Positions 11,027-36,617 of a stretch of 64,000 nucleotides of DNA are shown here, piece by piece. A model generated the notes under the pieces. It worked only from the letters and a program-made list of their open reading frames with translations, had not been told where the DNA came from and made no database searches. A program made the translations under genes and the position numbers. Within the stretch, counting starts at the first letter, position 1; every line of letters starts with the position of its first letter. The stretch lies in IMG/VR virus record IMGVR_UViG_3300045971_000674, positions 62,001 through 126,000 of that record; one strand, given 5' to 3'. This DNA comes from a virus.

Positions 11027-13843
11027 TTAGAACCTCAGGATGCTGTTGACATGGGTATTCTGTGGGGTGGGGACTTCCCAACCGATGGCGCCGAAGATGC
11101 CCTTCAGCTTGTTGTCGAACATCTTCTCTTCAGTGAGCTTGCGGTCTACCTCAAACTCACCAGTGAACCAATCAGGAAAGCGCTCGAGTTCGGCAGGGAT
11201 GCCAATGGATTTCCACCCGTGGGCATTGCCCTTGAGATAGAAGATGCGGACCTTGTCACCACCGCGAATGAGCTTGGCGCCCTCTTCAAAGGTGGGTGCA
11301 ATTTCGTTGTAGTGGATGGCAGCACGTACTTGACCAGGAACTGACGTGCCTGTGTAACCTGGACGATCCATCTCGCTGGGCAGCATGACCTTGCCGGCTG
11401 ATGGGCGACCCTTGCGAACCCATGCAGAGTAGTACTCGTCGAGATTGTTGGCTTGCTTCGCCACACCCATCGCGAAGATGTCGCCGTTCTTGCCAGCAAG
11501 AATCTTGCGCTGCTGATTGACGAACTTCTCAATGGATGGGTAGTCATCGCCAGACAGAATGCGGCTCATCAGATCCTTGAGGAAGGCCTGAATGATCTTC
11601 GGGGTGTCCGACTTCTTGATTTCGGAACCCTGTGACTTCAGCTTGTAACCGCCAGATGGGGTCACACCTTCATTGTCAACGACCTTCAGCACGTACTTCT
11701 TCTTGGCTTGGAAGAGGCCGCGTTCAGCAACAACTTCGCGACCAGCCTTCATGCGACCGTTGAATGATGGCTGCACGTTGAAGCGCTTCGCCATGAACTC
11801 GGTCCATCCGGCGTTTACGTGTGCTGCCACCTCGTCAGCGATCTTGATCGCATCAGCCTTGTTGGTAGCCTTCGTGCGAAAGTAGCACGAGTCGGTGTCA
11901 CCATAGATGATGACGTCGCTGTCGATGCCATATGCGTTGGTGACAGTGCCATCCTTCTCCACCTCAGTCGTCTTGACCAGGCGCTTGAAGTTCTTCTCGA
12001 TGTACTCGTGAATCGTCTGCATCATGTGCGTGGTGGTGCCACGGCCGCATGCAGTCACTGACGCGCCCATCTCCATACGACCGAAGCGGAACGCAATGTT
12101 GAGCAGAGCCCCGTAGGTCGAGTTCAGCTGGATCTTCTTGGTCAGCTGGAGCAGGTCGTAGTGGGCTTCCTGCTTCTCGTACTCTGCCTTCTTGACAGAA
12201 TCGGTCTCCTCACGAGCCAGCTTGCCGTACTTCTTCTTCTCGCCTTGTAGCCGCTTGCGCTCGGCAAACCAGAATGACAGCACTTCGGGTACGAGACCCA
12301 TTTCGCCAGATTGGTCGAAGATGGTGCCGTAGGCGGTGAGCGCCCACTTCTGTTCGATGAGAACAGCGCGCCACTCTTCGGCTGTGGCTTCCATGAAGTC
12401 GCCGTCGTCTGTCTCCAGGCGGTAGAGGATGTCCTCGGCCACTTCCTTGCCGTCGACGTCTTCGCCGAACATGATGCCGAACCATGCAGCATCGCACTCA
12501 GCGAACTGACCACGGAACATCTCGGGCGAGATGTTGAGCGACATGATCTCGGTCGGGTACAGAGACACCAAGTCGACTGAGCCCAGAAATTCGTGCAACC
12601 CGATCTTCGGGGTCAACACGATGGCACCCTCAACCTTCGGGTGCTTGATCAGTGGAGGCTTGTCAGGAACGATGACCTTCTTGGCCGTGTGGGCGAAGTT
12701 GGTGATGCCAGTCTCAACGTAGCGCACCGTACCCAGCATCGCGCTGTAGTTGACAGTGTTCTCGTGCGCCATCTGGTTCACCATCGTGATGAACCGGAAC
12801 TTGGCTTCCAAGTCAACCATGCCGCTGACGTCACGGAAGTTGTAGGCGCAGAAGGTGGGGAAGTCGTTGTGGTAGAGCTGCTCGAGGGTGCCCTCGTAGT
12901 GCAGCTTGCCGTGGTCTACCTCTTCAGCCAGGATGTTGGCAAGGGCGTACGACTCACGACCTTCGAACGTGAACTTCTCGAAGAGGTCCTTGTAGTCCAG
13001 GTGAGAACGACCGAAGATCGTGTACGTGATCTCAGGTGAGCCGAACTTGTCGACTTCACCTTGGCGCGGCTTCTTGCAGCCAACGAAGCACATCTTGTGA
13101 ACGAGCTTGGACCACACCAGCTCGAGGCGCTTCATGATGTATGGAAGGTCGAAGAACTCCGAGTTCCAGCCGCTGATGATGTCAGCGTCCTCGATGTCCA
13201 TGAGCATGTGATGAAGGAGCTCGCCCTCATTGGCACAGATCACGATCTCGGGGTAGATGCCCTTGGCAAGGTTGCCTTCTTCCATCAGGCGAGTGAACTC
13301 AGCCTTGATGTCCTCAACGGTGCCGTTCCATCGAACACCATCATTGATGGGCGGAATCACGTACTGCTTGTACGTCTTCGTCCACGACTGATAGATCGTG
13401 ATGGCGTTGATGATGGCATACGGGTTCTTGGGGCCCGCAAAGCCGATCTTCGACTTGTAATCGACTTCGATGTCGAGGAAGGCGAAGTTGACCACTGGCG
13501 TGGGGAGGTCCACGTAGTGGTTCATCAGGATCTTCAGCTCGGTCGGGATGTCCGACTCATGCAACGTTCCCTGCGGGAAGTGGCGACGGCCCTCTTCGAA
13601 GTCCTTGCGGGTATCGAAGTCGAAGCGCAGCAGCTTCTTGCCGTAGAGCGAGGTGTAACCTGCAGACACGTCGCAGTATGGCACGCCATCGCCAACTGAA
13701 CGAGCAATCTCCTCTGGCACATAGAAGTAGTGCTCAGCCTTCCATCGGCGTAGGACGCGTTGTCCGTCAGGGTCGCGCTCCCACACGAGGACCTTGTCAC
13801 TGTCCCAGTCGTAGACTGCGCCGATGTAGTTATTTGTCGTCAT
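11027..13843 (-). CDS. 43: DNA polymerase, family B (T4 gp43 type)
   Basis: 938 residues (898 in T4). Replicative polymerase with proofreading. Exo I FLDIEVD, Exo II ISGWNSEFFDLPY and an Exo III-like YNFRD motif lie in the N-terminal half; polymerase motif A DLVSLYPTEI, motif B QLNSTYGALLN and motif C YGDTDS in the C-terminal half. All catalytic acids appear present. The ATG at 13843 was preferred over an upstream in-frame codon; it overlaps the zinc-ribbon gene by 14 bases. Confidence 0.97.
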   Translation of the reverse strand: MTTNNYIGAVYDWDSDKVLVWERDPDGQRVLRRWKAEHYFYVPEEIARSVGDGVPYCDVSAGYTSLYGKKLLRFDFDTRKDFEEGRRHFPQGTLHESDIPTELKILMNHYVDLPTPVVNFAFLDIEVDYKSKIGFAGPKNPYAIINAITIYQSWTKTYKQYVIPPINDGVRWNGTVEDIKAEFTRLMEEGNLAKGIYPEIVICANEGELLHHMLMDIEDADIISGWNSEFFDLPYIMKRLELVWSKLVHKMCFVGCKKPRQGEVDKFGSPEITYTIFGRSHLDYKDLFEKFTFEGRESYALANILAEEVDHGKLHYEGTLEQLYHNDFPTFCAYNFRDVSGMVDLEAKFRFITMVNQMAHENTVNYSAMLGTVRYVETGITNFAHTAKKVIVPDKPPLIKHPKVEGAIVLTPKIGLHEFLGSVDLVSLYPTEIMSLNISPEMFRGQFAECDAAWFGIMFGEDVDGKEVAEDILYRLETDDGDFMEATAEEWRAVLIEQKWALTAYGTIFDQSGEMGLVPEVLSFWFAERKRLQGEKKKYGKLAREETDSVKKAEYEKQEAHYDLLQLTKKIQLNSTYGALLNIAFRFGRMEMGASVTACGRGTTTHMMQTIHEYIEKNFKRLVKTTEVEKDGTVTNAYGIDSDVIIYGDTDSCYFRTKATNKADAIKIADEVAAHVNAGWTEFMAKRFNVQPSFNGRMKAGREVVAERGLFQAKKKYVLKVVDNEGVTPSGGYKLKSQGSEIKKSDTPKIIQAFLKDLMSRILSGDDYPSIEKFVNQQRKILAGKNGDIFAMGVAKQANNLDEYYSAWVRKGRPSAGKVMLPSEMDRPGYTGTSVPGQVRAAIHYNEIAPTFEEGAKLIRGGDKVRIFYLKGNAHGWKSIGIPAELERFPDWFTGEFEVDRKLTEEKMFDNKLKGIFGAIGWEVPTPQNTHVNSILRF

Positions 13844-14464: not shown

Positions 14465-14866
14465 TTAGTTTACGAGTCGGATTGTCTTAGGACGTTCAGT
14501 CGAAAACACGCGCGCTTGAGCAACGGCATGGATCTGTCCGACCTTCTCCATGGCTTCGTCGAAGATCCAGAGGCGTGAGACCTCTCCTGCATCCCAATCC
14601 TTGGACAAGGTGGCCTGTCCGTTGTTGTAGACTGGGTTGACCTCAGACGACAGCTTGAAGGTCTGCTTTTCCGCGGCGGCAGTAGCGATGTGTGCCTTCA
14701 TGTCATCCATGAAGGACTTGCAGGATGCAAGACACTCGTCGTAGTTGGGGAACTCACGTGACGAGACGTTGATGTCAGAAGCACCAGGATACTTGTCCTT
14801 GAACACGGTAACTTGCTGTGTGCCGTGAATGAGCTTGACGGCTGCGGTGAAAGTGAATGCCTGCAT
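14465..14866 (-). CDS. Hypothetical protein
   Basis: 133 residues; ATG overlapping the upstream stop (TGATG). Beta-rich with a central charged helix. No recognised family. Last gene of the 14.5-17.5 kb minus-strand run. Confidence 0.7.
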   Translation of the reverse strand: MQAFTFTAAVKLIHGTQQVTVFKDKYPGASDINVSSREFPNYDECLASCKSFMDDMKAHIATAAAEKQTFKLSSEVNPVYNNGQATLSKDWDAGEVSRLWIFDEAMEKVGQIHAVAQARVFSTERPKTIRLVN

Positions 14867-20211: not shown

Positions 20212-21063
20212 CTACCACTTGAGCAATTCAGCCCTCGTCAGGATCTGAGTCATCAGCGGCTTGGCATCACCGAAGAGGATGTCCACGGCTTCCTCTTCTT
20301 TCGACAGCCACACGTCCATCTCCTTGATCTCGGTGCGCGTGATTTCCTTGGTCGCCCTGAACTGCTCCCAGTACGCCTCAGGCACGCGCTCGAAGTCTGC
20401 CGTCTCGATCGGTCTGGTCACCGTGATCCGCTTCACGAAGGTGCCGCGCTTGAAGAATGGCGGGTAGTCGTTGAAGTTGATGCCCTTCTCCTTGAACATC
20501 TTCTCCTGCATCTCGGGCCCATGCAGCCCCTGCAGCGACTTGTGCGAGAACATCGACTGAGCAGCCATGGAGATGGCGTTCTTGGTTGCGTCCTGCTGCC
20601 GCCACAGGAAGGCGTGGTAGGCTTCCTTGATGTTCGGCACCACGAAGGAACGTGCATCGAAGATCGGCAGCTTGTCAGCCTTCTCAGGAATGAGGGTGGG
20701 AAGCAGACGGTTGAAGACTGCTGTGGCATAGGCTGCGAGCAGGCTCTCGAGCTTCTGGAACCGACCCGAGAATGGGTACTCCGTGGTCTCATGCGGAGCG
20801 GAGTACCAAGCGAGGGTGATCTCGTCGGACTGCGTGTAGCCCACCTTGGCTTGGAAGTGATCGACCAGTGCGGTCGTGACCTGCACCATGAGCTTCGAAA
20901 GGCGCTCATCGTAAGGCCGCTTCAGGCCCTTGCAGAAGGTGTGGAAGCTCTTGCCGTCCAGGCGGACGATCAGTGGCTGGCCCTTGAATGCGACACGGGA
21001 TGTCGTGGGCTGCTCGTACGACTTCATCCGGTCGCCAAGCGTAGTTTTGTCTGTAGCTGACAT
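20212..21063 (-). CDS. thg1: tRNA-His guanylyltransferase family (Thg1-like 3'-5' polymerase)
   Basis: 283 residues, close to the eukaryotic/bacterial family length. Thg1 enzymes add G-1 to tRNA-His; Thg1-like proteins repair 5'-truncated tRNAs by 3'-5' synthesis. Catalytic elements are present: LGDRMKSYE, RLDGKSFHTF (Asp36) and TQSDEITL (Asp80, Glu81). Driven by the best sigma70 promoter in the window (TTGACA-N18-TACAAT) with a ~45-base leader holding a small hairpin. Which substrate it uses is not known; repair of tRNAs damaged by host defence is plausible. Confidence 0.92.
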   Translation of the reverse strand: MSATDKTTLGDRMKSYEQPTTSRVAFKGQPLIVRLDGKSFHTFCKGLKRPYDERLSKLMVQVTTALVDHFQAKVGYTQSDEITLAWYSAPHETTEYPFSGRFQKLESLLAAYATAVFNRLLPTLIPEKADKLPIFDARSFVVPNIKEAYHAFLWRQQDATKNAISMAAQSMFSHKSLQGLHGPEMQEKMFKEKGINFNDYPPFFKRGTFVKRITVTRPIETADFERVPEAYWEQFRATKEITRTEIKEMDVWLSKEEEAVDILFGDAKPLMTQILTRAELLKW

Positions 21064-21152: not shown

Positions 21153-21566
21153 TCAGGTTAGAACGCGGTTCGCTCTGTTCAGAACGTAGAAGTACTTGGT
21201 GCTGTCGTCCAAGCTGAAGGGGTCGAGGTCGATCTGGGCTTGCATCAGGAAACAGACGAGGGCCGACATGTTGGCCCAGTACTCATTCAGCACATCAAGT
21301 TCCATCTCATCCCGAGACAGTGGACTTGGAATCCCCTTCTTCCAGGCTTCTAGCACCGAAGCCATCTTGGTTGGCAGGTCACCTAGCTGGCCGATGCAGA
21401 AGTTGAGCTCTGCAGTTCGCATCTCATCTGCTCTCGACTGCATCGGGTATCGCTCAAGGTAGAAGACGGTGTGCTCAAACAGGAGATCAACCTGTCGTAA
21501 CAACCCGATGTAAGCAATCTCTGCCTGAACTATGAGCTCAGATCGAAGCTGGTGGTTTGTGTGCAT
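21153..21566 (-). CDS. Late hypothetical protein
   Basis: 137 residues, helical, acidic. The second ATG (21566) was chosen because GGGAG lies 7 bases upstream. A late octamer CGTAAATA precedes it. No family recognised. It forms a divergent late pair with the plus-strand MoxR operon, the two octamers being 21 bases apart. Confidence 0.72.
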   Translation of the reverse strand: MHTNHQLRSELIVQAEIAYIGLLRQVDLLFEHTVFYLERYPMQSRADEMRTAELNFCIGQLGDLPTKMASVLEAWKKGIPSPLSRDEMELDVLNEYWANMSALVCFLMQAQIDLDPFSLDDSTKYFYVLNRANRVLT

Positions 21567-21584
21567 GCGGTCTCCCATGTGTCA

Positions 21585-21613: not shown

Positions 21614-21621
21614 GATAAATA
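21614..21621 (+). promoter_or_regulatory. T4-type late promoter GATAAATA (plus strand)
   Basis: 30 bases before the first gene of the plus-strand MoxR/VWA operon. Confidence 0.65.
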
Positions 21622-21650
21622 GGTGGTACAATCCCACCCAGGAAGTTAGA

Positions 21651-21914
21651 ATGAAACTTCATCACTTCATCACGGCGCAGCCTTCCGAAGCAGCTAACCG
21701 TGTGCGAGATTTGGGCAAGGCGCTTTCGCCTGCCAAGTTGCCAGTTGTCTCTCTGCCAGAGCCAGTCGTTGAAACTCAGGAAGATCCTGTTGAAGACACC
21801 GGTCCAGTTGCTGAACCACATGAGAAGGAAGCACATCGCCGCCATGCTCATGAACAAGCCAAGGGCAGCAAAGCTTGCCATCACGTGCATGTCATGTACG
21901 ACAACTACAGCTAA
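21651..21914 (+). CDS. Small late protein with head-targeting-like N-terminus
   Basis: 87 residues. Starts MKLHHFITAQPSEAAN, close to the start of the late protein at 36231-36617 (MKLHQAIISEAPI); cleavage at SE|A would fit T4 logic except for Pro at the third position. Middle Pro/Val/Glu-rich, C-terminus His-rich. Ends 9 bases before the MoxR gene, with which it shares the late promoter. Confidence 0.7.
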   Translation: MKLHHFITAQPSEAANRVRDLGKALSPAKLPVVSLPEPVVETQEDPVEDTGPVAEPHEKEAHRRHAHEQAKGSKACHHVHVMYDNYS

Positions 21915-21923
21915 GAGAGCAAC

Positions 21924-24473
21924 ATGAGAAAACTCGAAGTAGCTGCCCTTGACGTCAGCGGCAAAATCAAGACCCTCGAGCATATCTTTGACGATATGCA
22001 CACACGGTCTCGTGGTCTCGGCCAATCTGGTTACCTTCTCGGTGGCGACACCGGTGTGGGCAAGACTTCATTCGTTCGTGACCTAGCACAGCTGCTCGGC
22101 CTCGAGCTGGTGATGATCGAAACACCACACATCGTTGAAGAACACATCATCGACATCCCATTCATCGTGGTCAAGCCAAATGGCGAAGCCTCGACGAAGC
22201 GTGAGGTTGTCGATACCAAGTCGTCTCGCGCTGAGTTCGACATCAAGTTCGCCAAGTCGCACCTGTTCACCACTCTCGTGGCCTCGAAGCAAGCGCCTGA
22301 TGCAGCTCTTCTGGCCCAAGTGCAGAAGCGTCAAGACCTCTTCATGATCTGGGAAAAGCTTGGTGGCACCGCTACCACAATCCCTGACGAGATCAAGCAA
22401 CTGCGCGCCAAGTTCAAGACGATCTTGTTCCTGGACGAATACTTCCGCCAGACTTCGAACTCTATCCGCAACATGCTGCGTTCGATCCTGAACGGTCGCA
22501 TCGGTCAGAACACCATCCCTGCTGACATTTACGTTCTGTTTGCTTCGAACCTGGTTGACAGCGGCGTTGGCGACATCCTCGAGAACGAGGACTTCGTCAT
22601 GATGAACTTTGACACGCCGAACTTGGACGAGTGGTTTGCGTACCTCATCACGAAGTACAAGAACAACCCGAAGATCAAGCTCGACGAGGAACTGCTGCAC
22701 GACTTCTACAAACTGATGAAGAAGAATGCAGGATCGTTGTCCACTGACGACATGGCTGCGGACGTTCGCGTCTCGCCACGCCGTTGGGAACAGCTCGTGG
22801 TGTACCTGTCAACTGCCCTTCCGGTCAAGGACCAGCGCGATGCTGACTTGCTGCTGAAGAACGTTGCTGTCAACTTCCAGAACTACGTCGATGGCAAGCA
22901 GGCCGAAATCGCCAAGGACGTTCTCAAGACCGTCAAGGACCTGATCAAGGAACGCCAGGAAATCACCGGTGACGAGAAGAACGTCAAGGACCACGACTGG
23001 CGCGAAACCCTCGAGCATCAGATCAAGACACGCATGAAGGCAGGCGAGGCACGCAAGTACGTGCCTGTCATCGCTGGCCCTCCTGGTGCTGGCAAGACCA
23101 AGCACATCAAGGACATCGCTACTGACCTGAACCTGGTGCCGATCGTCATCGACGTTCAGAATGCTTCTCCTGAAGAAGCCATCGGCGTTCCACTCGCCAA
23201 GGAAGGCAAGAACGACAGCATCGAGGTGGCATTCTCCAAGCCGCCAATGAACGATGACATCCAGAACCAGATGAAGGAAGGCGAGAAGCACCTCAAGGAA
23301 CGTCTCATCAAGTTCCACGGTGCAGATGCAGGTGGCAAGATGTTCGCTGCTTGGCAGAAGTCCGACACGAAGTACCTGATCTTCTTCGACGAATTGAACC
23401 GCACGAACGTCAAGGTGTTCAACGCCATGCGTAAGGTGCTGCTCGAGAAGGAGTTCAACGACGAGTACAAGCTGCCACCCGAATCGATCCTCGTGGCCGC
23501 CATCAACCCAACGGGTAAGGGCGTCATCGAACTGACCAAGCACGTTCGCGACGTGTTCGACGTCATTCCGGTTGGTTTGGATTGGAACCAGTTCCAGAAG
23601 CACCTCGGCACGATCAACCTCGGTGTAGACCCAGTCGTTGCTGACTTCTCCCGCAATGTCATCACTGCATTTGCAGATCGCTTCAAGCTCAAGGGCGGTG
23701 CCCCAGGCAACATCGATCCACACTTCTACCTGAGCATCGGCCCAACGCCGCTGTACATCTCAGGCCGTGAGTACAACAAGATGCTGGTGCTTGTGGCCCA
23801 GGGTGCTGAACGCGCCTACCAACGGGAAGTGGCTCACCTCGGTGAACCAGGTCACGAAGTGGACAAGAGTGAAGCCAAGGTCCGTGGTGCAATCGCCGAC
23901 AAACTGATCCATGCCCTCGACCACATTATCAAGAACAAGCACGGCGTTGACGCGCCCGAGTTCAATGGTGACCTGCGCGAATGGGCTCTGACCACTGACG
24001 GCTTCTCACTGGGCGACGCCTTCAAGAAGAAGGTCAAGACCATCAAGAACCTGTCTGCTCTGCTCGACCGCTCGTTCGCTGACCAAAGCGAAGACCTGTT
24101 CAACGAGCAGGAATTCATCAACTACGTTACGTCTGTCGACGCCACGGTCTTCAAGGAAGACCTGACCGAGTTCATGACCAACGCTGTGATGAAGGATGCC
24201 AAGAACGCCTTCGCCAAGTTCGGCAAGGAGAAGACCCTGGCAGGCACAAAGGCCAAGGTTACTGCCAAGGAAGTGTCCAAGCTGGAGTTCATCACACGCG
24301 AAGTGCTGCACGCCCTCAAGCTGCATGACATCTCCAACAAGATGATGCAGATGGTGAAGGTCGCTGTTCGTGACACCCTCGAGAAGGTTGCTGACGCTGA
24401 GTCAGACACCATCATGGACGTCATGAACTTCAGCCGCGAGATGAACGCCTACATCAAGAAACTATCAGTGTGA
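21924..24473 (+). CDS. MoxR-type AAA+ ATPase with two AAA modules
   Basis: 849 residues. First P-loop GDTGVGKT (41-48) with FLDEYFRQTSNS as Walker B region; second P-loop GPPGAGKT (385-392) with FFDELNRTN. The pattern of dynein-related/MoxR ATPases, which act with VWA partners to remodel or assemble protein complexes. It overlaps the next gene by 4 bases (GTGTGA), and the three genes form one late operon. Two AAA copies in one chain is unusual for MoxR, whose members usually have one. Target unknown. Confidence 0.85.
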   Translation: MRKLEVAALDVSGKIKTLEHIFDDMHTRSRGLGQSGYLLGGDTGVGKTSFVRDLAQLLGLELVMIETPHIVEEHIIDIPFIVVKPNGEASTKREVVDTKSSRAEFDIKFAKSHLFTTLVASKQAPDAALLAQVQKRQDLFMIWEKLGGTATTIPDEIKQLRAKFKTILFLDEYFRQTSNSIRNMLRSILNGRIGQNTIPADIYVLFASNLVDSGVGDILENEDFVMMNFDTPNLDEWFAYLITKYKNNPKIKLDEELLHDFYKLMKKNAGSLSTDDMAADVRVSPRRWEQLVVYLSTALPVKDQRDADLLLKNVAVNFQNYVDGKQAEIAKDVLKTVKDLIKERQEITGDEKNVKDHDWRETLEHQIKTRMKAGEARKYVPVIAGPPGAGKTKHIKDIATDLNLVPIVIDVQNASPEEAIGVPLAKEGKNDSIEVAFSKPPMNDDIQNQMKEGEKHLKERLIKFHGADAGGKMFAAWQKSDTKYLIFFDELNRTNVKVFNAMRKVLLEKEFNDEYKLPPESILVAAINPTGKGVIELTKHVRDVFDVIPVGLDWNQFQKHLGTINLGVDPVVADFSRNVITAFADRFKLKGGAPGNIDPHFYLSIGPTPLYISGREYNKMLVLVAQGAERAYQREVAHLGEPGHEVDKSEAKVRGAIADKLIHALDHIIKNKHGVDAPEFNGDLREWALTTDGFSLGDAFKKKVKTIKNLSALLDRSFADQSEDLFNEQEFINYVTSVDATVFKEDLTEFMTNAVMKDAKNAFAKFGKEKTLAGTKAKVTAKEVSKLEFITREVLHALKLHDISNKMMQMVKVAVRDTLEKVADAESDTIMDVMNFSREMNAYIKKLSV

Positions 24474-25669
24474 AGCCAAACGAAAAACGTCTGCGCCAGC
24501 TCTTCGCTGGTACACATCGTCTGACCGAAGACAACGTCAAGCGGGCTATCGGCAGCGGGGTGCTTCCCACCTCGTCACTGTCTGACCCGCACATTCGTAA
24601 GATCATCGATCACATCCACAAGACCTCGAAGATCTCCGTGGCTGACATCGAGGATGAGATCAGCAGCGAAGTTGCACGCATTGCCAAGCAACATGCCAAG
24701 TCGCCATTGCTCTTTGGTTCGATGATGGCCAATGCTGTTGAGGCCGCGCTCTTCGACATGTTCTCTCCGAAGGCAGCCCGCACGAAGCCTGAGCACAACC
24801 TTCGCAAGCGCAAGAACAATGCCGGCGAAGACGAGATCGTGCCAAAGATCCAGGCGGTTCCCAAGTCAACCGTGCCAAAGTGGGATCCGGTCATCTTCTC
24901 GGCACTTGTTCGTCGCATCAAGGCTGAGAACCAGTCCATCTTCCCGCTGCGTAACTTCTACAACAAGAAGCCGATCATCTCTCCGCGCATCATCTATGTG
25001 CCGAGCAAGCATGAGGTAGATCAAAAGCAGTTCGGCGACATCGACACCGCTGCTGCCACGCCGAAGGGTGAGTTCATCTTCAATCTGCACTTCATGCAGC
25101 AGTGCATGGACTTCTCCCACACCAAGGGCATCAAGCCGAAGGGCAAGAAGTACGTGAGCAATGGTGGTGAGTTCCCCGATGAATACTGCATGATCGAGTT
25201 CCTGATCCTGCACGAGTTCTTCCACTACACCCATGCCGACTTCCACTACCACAAGGTGCTGAAGGACGACGAGGGCAAGAAGGCTGTTGGCAAGATCATC
25301 AACTGGGTCGGCGACTTCCGCACCAACTACGACTTGATCAAGGCTGGTCATGAAGGCATTCCGATGGGTCTGTACAACGAGCTGGTCAACTACGACCGCC
25401 AGTACACCTACGAAGAGATGTACAACCTCGTCAAGAACGAGTTGAAGAAGCTGAAAGAGAAGAAGGTGCCGAAGGTCGGCGACCTCGTCAAGGATCTCAA
25501 AGGTAAGGGCTACCACATCGTCACTGCTGTCGACATGGTCAAGGGCGAGGTTGATGCTCGTCCAGCCACGCAGGCCGAGATCGATGCTGTGTTGAAGCCA
25601 GCACCCGCCCCACAGATCGTTCAGGTAAAGGGTGGGCCAGCTCCCGCCAGTTCAGCAGGTAATCCATGA
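24470..25669 (+). CDS. HExxH putative metallopeptidase of a MoxR/VWA operon
   Basis: 399 residues, GTG start coupled to the ATPase stop. ILHEFFHYTH contains a zinc-peptidase HExxH (His248, Glu249, His252), followed by an acidic/His stretch and GDFRTNYD that may supply a third ligand. This resembles the peptidase-like N-terminal half of VWA-like DUF2201 proteins, here a separate gene. Cells often encode this trio next to each other. Whether it cuts protein is untested; C-terminus is Pro/Ala-rich. Confidence 0.72.
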   Translation: MKPNEKRLRQLFAGTHRLTEDNVKRAIGSGVLPTSSLSDPHIRKIIDHIHKTSKISVADIEDEISSEVARIAKQHAKSPLLFGSMMANAVEAALFDMFSPKAARTKPEHNLRKRKNNAGEDEIVPKIQAVPKSTVPKWDPVIFSALVRRIKAENQSIFPLRNFYNKKPIISPRIIYVPSKHEVDQKQFGDIDTAAATPKGEFIFNLHFMQQCMDFSHTKGIKPKGKKYVSNGGEFPDEYCMIEFLILHEFFHYTHADFHYHKVLKDDEGKKAVGKIINWVGDFRTNYDLIKAGHEGIPMGLYNELVNYDRQYTYEEMYNLVKNELKKLKEKKVPKVGDLVKDLKGKGYHIVTAVDMVKGEVDARPATQAEIDAVLKPAPAPQIVQVKGGPAPASSAGNP

Positions 25670-26814
25670 GCAAGTTCACACTAGACGAGATTGAAGTTGT
25701 CGAAGGCCCTTCGAAGAAGAAAAAGAAGGGTCAGGGCGGTGGTGGCGGTCAAGGCGAACCACAACCCGGTGGCGGTGGTGAACCCGGCGACGAAGAGGGC
25801 GACGGTTCTGGTGGTGAGGGTGAAGGCGAAGGTGAAGAGGGCGACGAAGAGGGTGAAGGCGCTGGCGGTGAAGCTGGTGAAGAACTCGACCGTCGTTCTG
25901 GCGATGACCACAGCACCCACCATGGCGAAGATGAGGATGATCCTGATGGTGAAACACCATCCAAGGAAGACCTAGAGAAGCATAGCAAGAAGGTCTCCAA
26001 GGCCACTGGCGAGAAGGACGAAGGAGCCAAGGCCGGCAAGGCTGGTGACGATCGTCCTGGCGAGAAGAGCGGCCGAGGCGGTCCTGGTTCCCACACCAAT
26101 CTCCAACCGCATGAGGTCGATTGGGCTTCCATTCGTCCACGCTACAACTGGAAGGATCTGTTGGCTCGTCTGATCCACGCATCCGACTCTACCGAAATCA
26201 CCTACCAGAAGGTGCACCGTCGTGCTGTCACTTCGATGCACACGGCTGCTCAGACCGGCGCTGGCGTAGTTCGCCCAGGCGAGAAGGACTTCCCAGCCAA
26301 CCTGGTGAAGCTCTGCATTGTCATCGACTCATCTGGCTCCATGTCGAGCGCCATCAAGACAGTGTTCGCGAACATCTCCAAGCTGTTCACTGAGAACTCG
26401 GCTGGCATTGCAAAGGAGTTCGCAATCGTCGAATTCTCAGGCAACTTCCACCCGTATGCGTGCACGCTGAATGGCAAGGCAGGTACTGCTCGAGCCATCA
26501 CGGGTGTAGAGGGCATGAAGGGCGCGGGTGGCGGGGAGCGTGTCGATCTGTCTGTGATCCTGAGTCGCCATGAGGGCGGTGGTACCAACTTCGACGAGCC
26601 GCTGGTGACTTGCCTGAAGGGGTTCGTCAAGGAGAAGTACAACGTGCTGGTCCTGACAGACCACGACATCACATCAGGTGGCAATCGTGAGAGCTTCTTG
26701 GACCTCTACGCATCCAACCACCAGCAGGTCTTCCTGATCCTCGACAGCAAGGAGACCTTCGTGAGTGTGATCAAGAGTCTGAAGCAGGCATCTGCCAACA
26801 TCAGCCACATGTGA
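25666..26814 (+). CDS. VWA-domain protein with low-complexity acidic N-terminus
   Basis: 382 residues, overlapping the metallopeptidase stop (ATGA). Residues 17-145 are a Gly/Glu/Asp/Lys-rich disordered region. The VWA domain begins near 212 with a complete MIDAS: DSSGS (Asp221, Ser223, Ser225), Thr307 in GGGTNFDE and Asp332 in LTDHD. VWA partners bind the MoxR ATPase and present the substrate. Ends in a bidirectional hairpin terminator. Confidence 0.88.
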   Translation: MSKFTLDEIEVVEGPSKKKKKGQGGGGGQGEPQPGGGGEPGDEEGDGSGGEGEGEGEEGDEEGEGAGGEAGEELDRRSGDDHSTHHGEDEDDPDGETPSKEDLEKHSKKVSKATGEKDEGAKAGKAGDDRPGEKSGRGGPGSHTNLQPHEVDWASIRPRYNWKDLLARLIHASDSTEITYQKVHRRAVTSMHTAAQTGAGVVRPGEKDFPANLVKLCIVIDSSGSMSSAIKTVFANISKLFTENSAGIAKEFAIVEFSGNFHPYACTLNGKAGTARAITGVEGMKGAGGGERVDLSVILSRHEGGGTNFDEPLVTCLKGFVKEKYNVLVLTDHDITSGGNRESFLDLYASNHQQVFLILDSKETFVSVIKSLKQASANISHM

Positions 26815-36230: not shown

Positions 36231-36617
36231 TTAGCGCTGCTTCGAGAGAACGTACTTCTGCCATTCCACGAGATCGAGATCTTTGTCGTGGAGGGCACAT
36301 TCACCCGCTGCAATGCAATCTTTGAGGTACTGTGCCAGAGCGACGCTGTCTTCAGGCTTCATTGCCTTCATGGCAGCAACGACGACGGAGCTCGTGGCTT
36401 TTGATTCGAAGTCAAGCGGCACCTCTGATTGGAGGGTGAGCGACTTGAGACCGTTCTTGAAGAACTCGGACAGCTTGGCCATCACGAAGTTCTGATACGG
36501 GTTGGTGACCTTGCCAGCGCGAATGACTTCGTCAAGCGTCAGTGCGTAGGAGACAGGACCTTGACCTTCAATGGTCAGGATCGGGGCTTCAGAGATGATG
36601 GCTTGGTGGAGCTTCAT
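36231..36617 (-). CDS. Late protein with capsid-targeting-like N-terminus
   Basis: 128 residues. N-terminus MKLHQAIISEAPI contains ISE|A, an exact match to the T4 prohead protease rule, after 10 residues, the size of a T4 targeting peptide (MKTYQEFIAE|A). It has a perfect late promoter 25 bases upstream. The remainder is helical, with no enzyme motif. An internal head protein is likely. Confidence 0.78.
   Translation of the reverse strand: MKLHQAIISEAPILTIEGQGPVSYALTLDEVIRAGKVTNPYQNFVMAKLSEFFKNGLKSLTLQSEVPLDFESKATSSVVVAAMKAMKPEDSVALAQYLKDCIAAGECALHDKDLDLVEWQKYVLSKQR

Follow-up and report, generated by a model that had tools for sequence, protein, structure and literature searches.

On sequence homology, the operon at positions 21,614 to 26,814 of the window is a rearranged variant of a known phage gene pair, N4 gp24/gp25 (a MoxR ATPase and a DUF2201 metallopeptidase-VWA protein); we call it a variant because the metallopeptidase and the VWA protein are not fused in the window. 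What is new is that the ATPase module is doubled in one chain, that metallopeptidase and VWA protein are encoded by two coupled genes (in the window and in the contig L097), and that the operon has a conserved architecture of late promoter and small first gene. The sequence-only reading had recognized a MoxR ATPase and a VWA partner in one coupled operon, which holds, and had overlooked its kinship with the gp24/gp25 type, of which it is a split and duplicated form.

Organization of the operon and of the phage record

The window is the whole stretch of 64,000 nucleotides analysed, bases 62001-126000 of the 131,025-base IMG/VR record IMGVR_UViG_3300045971_000674 (G000). The features of the operon are the following:

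21614..21622, plus strand: T4-type late promoter box GATAAATAG, 36 nt before the small gene (counted from the start of ATAAATA)
21651..21914, plus strand: ORF of a small protein of 87 aa, start MKLHHF, His-rich C-terminus, first gene of the operon
21924..24473, plus strand: 849-aa ATPase with two MoxR/gp24-like AAA+ modules in one chain, P-loops at about residues 40-48 and 385-392
24470..25669, plus strand: 399-aa HExxH protein (HEFFH), homologue of the metallopeptidase part of DUF2201_N/gp25 by profile alignment
25666..26814, plus strand: 382-aa VWA protein (DSSGSM), with a Gly/acid-rich N-terminus, the end part of DUF2201_N and a VWA domain with full MIDAS

The ATPase, HExxH and VWA genes lie on the plus strand as first described and each overlaps the next by 4 nt. 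The description of the operon as an island inverted against nearly all other genes is correct within the window and fails for the record, where a large plus-strand block of virion genes is found at ~6-55 kb, outside the window.

The record encodes a T4-like gene set composed of DNA polymerase, gp46/47-like nuclease subunits, topoisomerase II, processivity clamp, tail sheath, RNA ligase/tail-fibre attachment protein and a gp55-like late sigma factor (E 6e-31). A portal search ties it to 57 IMG/VR contigs, several of them of 230-350 kb, and the nearest isolates are jumbo phages, e.g. Xanthomonas XacN1 and Stenotrophomonas RAS14 and CM1. These three observations make it probable that the record covers part of the genome of a very large T4-like jumbo phage.

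Two minus-strand genes are found upstream of the operon. The gene at 20212-21063 encodes a Thg1-like tRNA-His guanylyltransferase (Pfam 6e-30), which adjoins the operon in the contigs L095 and L097 too (~69% identity). The gene at 21153-21578, divergent from the operon, encodes a 141-aa protein without family match that is kept in L095, in L097 and near the canonical pair of the record G014.

The tandem ATPase

The ATPase matches phrog_1297 (E 4e-27) and falls below the cut-off of the bpMoxR model. Two complete AAA modules per chain are present in the window and in its three independent orthologues, and a single one is present in G014. At all four loci, each of the two modules retains intact Walker A (GGDTGVGKT and GPPGAGKT), Walker B, sensor 1 and sensor 2 motifs. 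In profile comparison the modules match the gp24 profile and one another, consistent with duplication of one AAA module type within the chain. The two-module MoxR-type ATPase of the sequence-only reading is confirmed by the intact P-loops and by these gp24 matches. At the usual arginine-finger region, AAA2 contains a HVRD motif conserved in all four proteins, whereas AAA1 displays NEDF followed by R in the three relatives and by V in the window; the arginines of HVRD and NEDF-R are putative arginine fingers. A structure model of the ATPase (pLDDT 64, pTM 0.33) matches tandem-AAA proteins and NorQ, with TM-scores that are very low and a large rmsd. The model agrees with the presence of AAA+ modules only and does not discriminate a stacked from an in-plane ring. 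A sequence search of the PDB with the ATPase or VWA profiles gave no match.

The HExxH and VWA proteins

The HExxH motif and a block N-x-x-G-D-x-x-x-N are invariant in the four loci, and the existence of a separate HExxH protein in the window is borne out. From these motifs we infer zinc binding and peptidase activity. The first part of the DUF2201_N/gp25-type profile aligns with the HExxH protein and the rest with the VWA protein (pairwise E-values, uncorrected for database size). Against PF13203, the two fused orthologues described below score 30.8 and 36.5 bits (cut-off 23.2), and the HExxH protein of the window alone is below the Pfam threshold. Its AF2 model has a pLDDT of 54.

The VWA protein matches phrog_1314. 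Its MIDAS, composed of DSSGSM, the T of TNF and the D of a later TDHD, has all its residues at the three loci that could be compared and does not vary among them, so that the full MIDAS first read in the window is also found in two further loci. Neither the P-loops nor the MIDAS are degenerate in the relatives. The C-terminus [IF]SH[MLF] of the VWA protein is kept while the stretch joining metallopeptidase and VWA domain is cut in two of the four loci. A VWA match in G007 corresponds to an unrelated VWA protein without HExxH.

Orthologous loci and the split and fused forms

The relatives were found through portal-based and alignment-based searches; when IMG/VR was scanned with the single sequences of the ATPase, HExxH and VWA proteins, none came up. 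In a tblastn search of a phage collection, the ATPase and the VWA protein had one weak match each and the HExxH protein had no match. The orthologous operons are those of G010 (IMGVR_UViG_3300036781_000418, 343 kb), L095 (IMGVR_UViG_3300025113_000003) and the contig L097, which was assigned to an Omnitrophota MAG in binning yet is collinear with the window phage. All three contain the small gene and the tandem ATPase (59-60% identity to the ATPase of the window), and the order box, small gene, tandem ATPase, metallopeptidase is kept in these independent relatives, which is the conservation across related phages that the sequence-only reading had proposed to look for. The small proteins at the matching position are weakly similar to that of the window, and a MKL start is common to all four. 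The small first protein of L097 (7749-7988, plus strand) has a dockerin/EF-hand-like stretch DMDGDGDVD (Pfam 20.7 bits, cut-off 22.9) that is not seen in the version of the window.

The metallopeptidase and the VWA domain form one protein of 596-599 aa in G010 and L095; they are separate in the window and in L097, with the same 4-nt overlap (the VWA gene of L097 is cut by the contig end). The presence of the fused form in two of the four loci could indicate that the split results from a frameshift or an assembly error in a gene that is really one fusion, which we find hardly credible: the independent contig L097 is split identically, overlap included, and the HExxH proteins of the window and of L097 share an additional C-terminal module (KVGD...GYH[IV]VTAV...ARPAT) that the fused forms lack. 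On these two grounds the artefact was rejected.

The ATPases of L095 and L097 are 74% identical, whereas the metallopeptidase of L097 is 64% identical to that of the window and 48% to that of L095. Since the closest relatives of the ATPase and of the metallopeptidase differ among the four operons, these identities suggest an exchange of the split allele between lineages. The dN/dS ratio is roughly 0.2-0.5 in every pair compared, with synonymous changes near saturation.

The canonical arrangement is seen in G014, where a single-AAA ATPase (426 aa) and a fused partner (440 aa) are encoded close to homologues of some of the same flanking genes. A third P-loop gene is present beside this canonical pair (L083 6428-7426, plus strand; 332 aa, weak AAA match). 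Among 20 portal-related records (of uncertain completeness), only G010 and G014 contain the system, and a PF13203 search detects it in two of the 10 portal-related records larger than 230 kb (also of uncertain completeness). This patchiness indicates that the system is not essential for building such particles.

Late promoters

The presence of a T4-type late promoter is upheld by the enrichment of its box and by the gp55-like sigma gene. The window contains 12 copies of ATAAATA, where 0.41 would be expected; the whole record contains 21 copies (0.17 expected) along with 15 of GTAAATA (0.44 expected; second-order Markov expectation for the record). In the 115 kb of G010 examined, the boxes are GTAAATA (15 against 0.64) and CTAAATA (16 against 0.38; same expectation), and ATAAATA followed by G or C is no commoner there than in the reversed control. 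The sequences [ACG]TAAATA[GC] are strongly enriched and most of them sit 28-42 nt ahead of gene starts, including those of virion genes. A box GATAAATAG or CGTAAATAG precedes the small gene by ~33-36 nt in each of the four orthologous operons, and boxes GTAAATAG are found at matching distance in G010, L095 and L097. Late expression, as first claimed, is predicted from these boxes, and no sign of early, separate transcription of the genes was found. Late expression does not hold for the family as a whole, because the N4 homologues are middle genes (PMC4193335) and no late box is present directly upstream of the gp24/gp25-type pair of the phages XaC1 and phAPEC6.

Other genes lie behind late boxes. 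In G000 and G010, those at window 36231-36617 (minus strand), L089 18789 and L093 479 each come first behind a late box. They have a T4 capsid-targeting-like start with an [I/L]xE|A site (MKLHQAIISEAP, MKTLLELLSMLHEAD and MQTLHELLNLIKEAD) and are candidate internal head proteins. The gene following the box at 13534 (plus strand) of L093, in G010, encodes a second, unrelated VWA-like protein (MKMHLIFLNDHSGSM..., 359 aa) behind CTAAATAG. Outside the window, a late-type box at 14751 (plus strand) of G000 is followed by an ORF with a GIY-YIG endonuclease-like start (MTIYSIYRLTNILTGKVYIGKT), read by eye.

Proposed function

The reading that we favour, and to which we give about an even chance, is that the operon encodes a late MoxR AAA+/VWA/metallopeptidase complex, relative of gp24/gp25, acting on virion proteins in assembly or maturation. 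Among the roles that had been offered from the sequence alone, virion maturation remains the most likely, as a computational prediction. It is favoured by the late box at four independent loci together with the late sigma gene, by the homology of all three proteins to the gp24/gp25 pair with catalytic motifs kept at ~60% identity, and by the XaC1 pair, which adjoins head and tail genes. The gp24 homologue of phAPEC6 (gp265c) was detected in purified virions with 6 peptides and 19% coverage (PMC7247149), although such mass spectrometry traces can be contamination. According to the accessible part of the same source, the gp25 homologue gp264c is not in the virion list; within the same limit, gp265c is the only homologue known from a virion. 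The papers searched give no experimentally established function for gp24/gp25-type proteins.

In the proposed mechanism, the ATPase would assemble into a ring, built as a pseudo-hexamer of three tandem chains or as two rings stacked on each other. The VWA protein would dock on this ring and bind a peptide of the substrate via its MIDAS, ATP hydrolysis would remodel the substrate, and the zincin, held here non-covalently instead of by a linker, would clip it. Since the stretch joining metallopeptidase and VWA domain is cut in two of the four loci, the protease of the split forms, if it works with the ring at all, would need such non-covalent contacts. The product of the small first gene is a candidate adaptor or substrate.

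Midasin and dynein have several AAA modules per chain, and midasin also has a MIDAS domain; these proteins are eukaryotic with six modules, and the MIDAS of midasin is fused to the motor. A more specific proposal is an in-plane pseudo-hexamer of three tandem-AAA chains, whose sites alternate and differ in function, and which would unfold and clip a virion protein with the help of a MIDAS co-chaperone and a zincin recruited separately. The complex would then be a minimal midasin-like ring and a dedicated AAA+ maturation protease of T4-like jumbo phages. AAA1 of the window, without arginine at the usual finger region, and AAA2, with a conserved one, are cited for this arrangement, which we consider quite unlikely.

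A role in host takeover or conflict, where the complex would remodel or degrade host proteins (defence, metabolism, envelope) during infection, agrees with the patchy distribution among close relatives, with the middle expression of the N4 homologues and with the membership of MoxR-vWA pairs in bacterial conflict systems (PMC7159879). We judge it unlikely in view of the late promoter of all four operons, of the homologous phAPEC6 ATPase found in virions, and of the HExxH and VWA proteins, which have no match to known defence families. With PADLOC the ATPase gives weak P-loop matches only and its two partners none; with the bpMoxR score below cut-off, a relation to known defence systems is unsupported. 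The late expression and the same phAPEC6 virion result would also fit a packaged ATPase, with or without its partners, that the particle carries into the next host cell and that acts there on entry. The head-targeting-like start first noticed on the small protein would favour such packaging, but the T4-type [I/L]xE site of prohead-protease cleavage is absent near the N-terminus in all four orthologues, and the head-targeting signal was rejected. Nor was a targeting-like start seen by eye on the ATPase, HExxH or VWA protein, and nothing specific points to the packaged host attack of the sequence-only reading; we judge loading into the particle very unlikely.

That reading had also proposed metal insertion. 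A chelatase-like (CobS/CobT-like) role for a phage or host metalloenzyme has a precedent in MoxR-VWA pairs elsewhere (NorQD, PMC13036017), and the fused orthologue of L095 has a weak match to TIGR02442. We regard this role as highly improbable. The CobN/Mg-chelatase large subunit (PF02514, CobN/ChlH) is absent from the four records G000 (a fragment), G010 (the 343-kb relative), G014 and G021, three of them being fragments or of uncertain completeness; the window proteins have no match to the NCBIfam chelatase models; and the conserved HExxH domain suggests proteolysis instead. The absence of the large subunit and the TIGR02442 score of L095, 24.8 bits against a cut-off of 779, led us to reject a chelatase identity.

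Comparison with known systems

Assembly or maturation of the virion, the favoured role, was already proposed, with proteolysis, by Iyer et al. 2021 for the fused pair of group 2.2 jumbo phages, citing p618/p892 of ATV (PMC7824862). The pair of these T4-like jumbo phages resembles the operon by its homologous ATPase, HExxH and VWA domains and by its neighbouring genes. It has one AAA module and a fused metallopeptidase-VWA protein, whereas the window has two AAA modules per chain, separate metallopeptidase and VWA proteins, a late box and a small first gene. N4 gp24/gp25 belong to the same two families, with a single AAA module, a fused partner and middle transcripts. The p618/p892 chaperone of the archaeal virus ATV, likened by description, also associates a viral MoxR ATPase with a VWA partner and acts in tail development (PMC4124505); p618 is a major virion component and no metallopeptidase is reported for the ATV system.

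The bacterial proteins NorQ/NorD, a metal-insertion chaperone, share the MoxR and VWA combination, and single AAA modules of the window match NorQ weakly in model-based comparison. Unlike the operon, NorQ/NorD serve iron insertion into nitric oxide reductase with a single AAA module and no zincin. The ATPase of NorQD acts on its VWA partner by remodelling a linker of it, and also contacts the C-terminus of that partner (PMC13036017). The variant described here links the gp24/gp25 system to late transcription. Its natural separations (split or fused metallopeptidase-VWA, single or double ATPase) bear on whether the system works as a ring with a covalent linker as in NorQD or with a separately recruited protease, and thereby make the mechanism testable.

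The gp24/gp25-type genes are core genes of N4-like phages (Schitoviridae). Queries from XaC1 match 825 phage records for the ATPase and 746 for the partner. The family phrog_1297 holds N4 gp24-like and phrog_1314 gp25-like proteins, the latter type being composed of DUF2201_N and a VWA-like domain (Pfam). In phrog_1314 and in many phage records (e.g. OR258281.1, XaC1_288) the label given to gp25-type proteins is "HNH endonuclease", probably a propagated misannotation.
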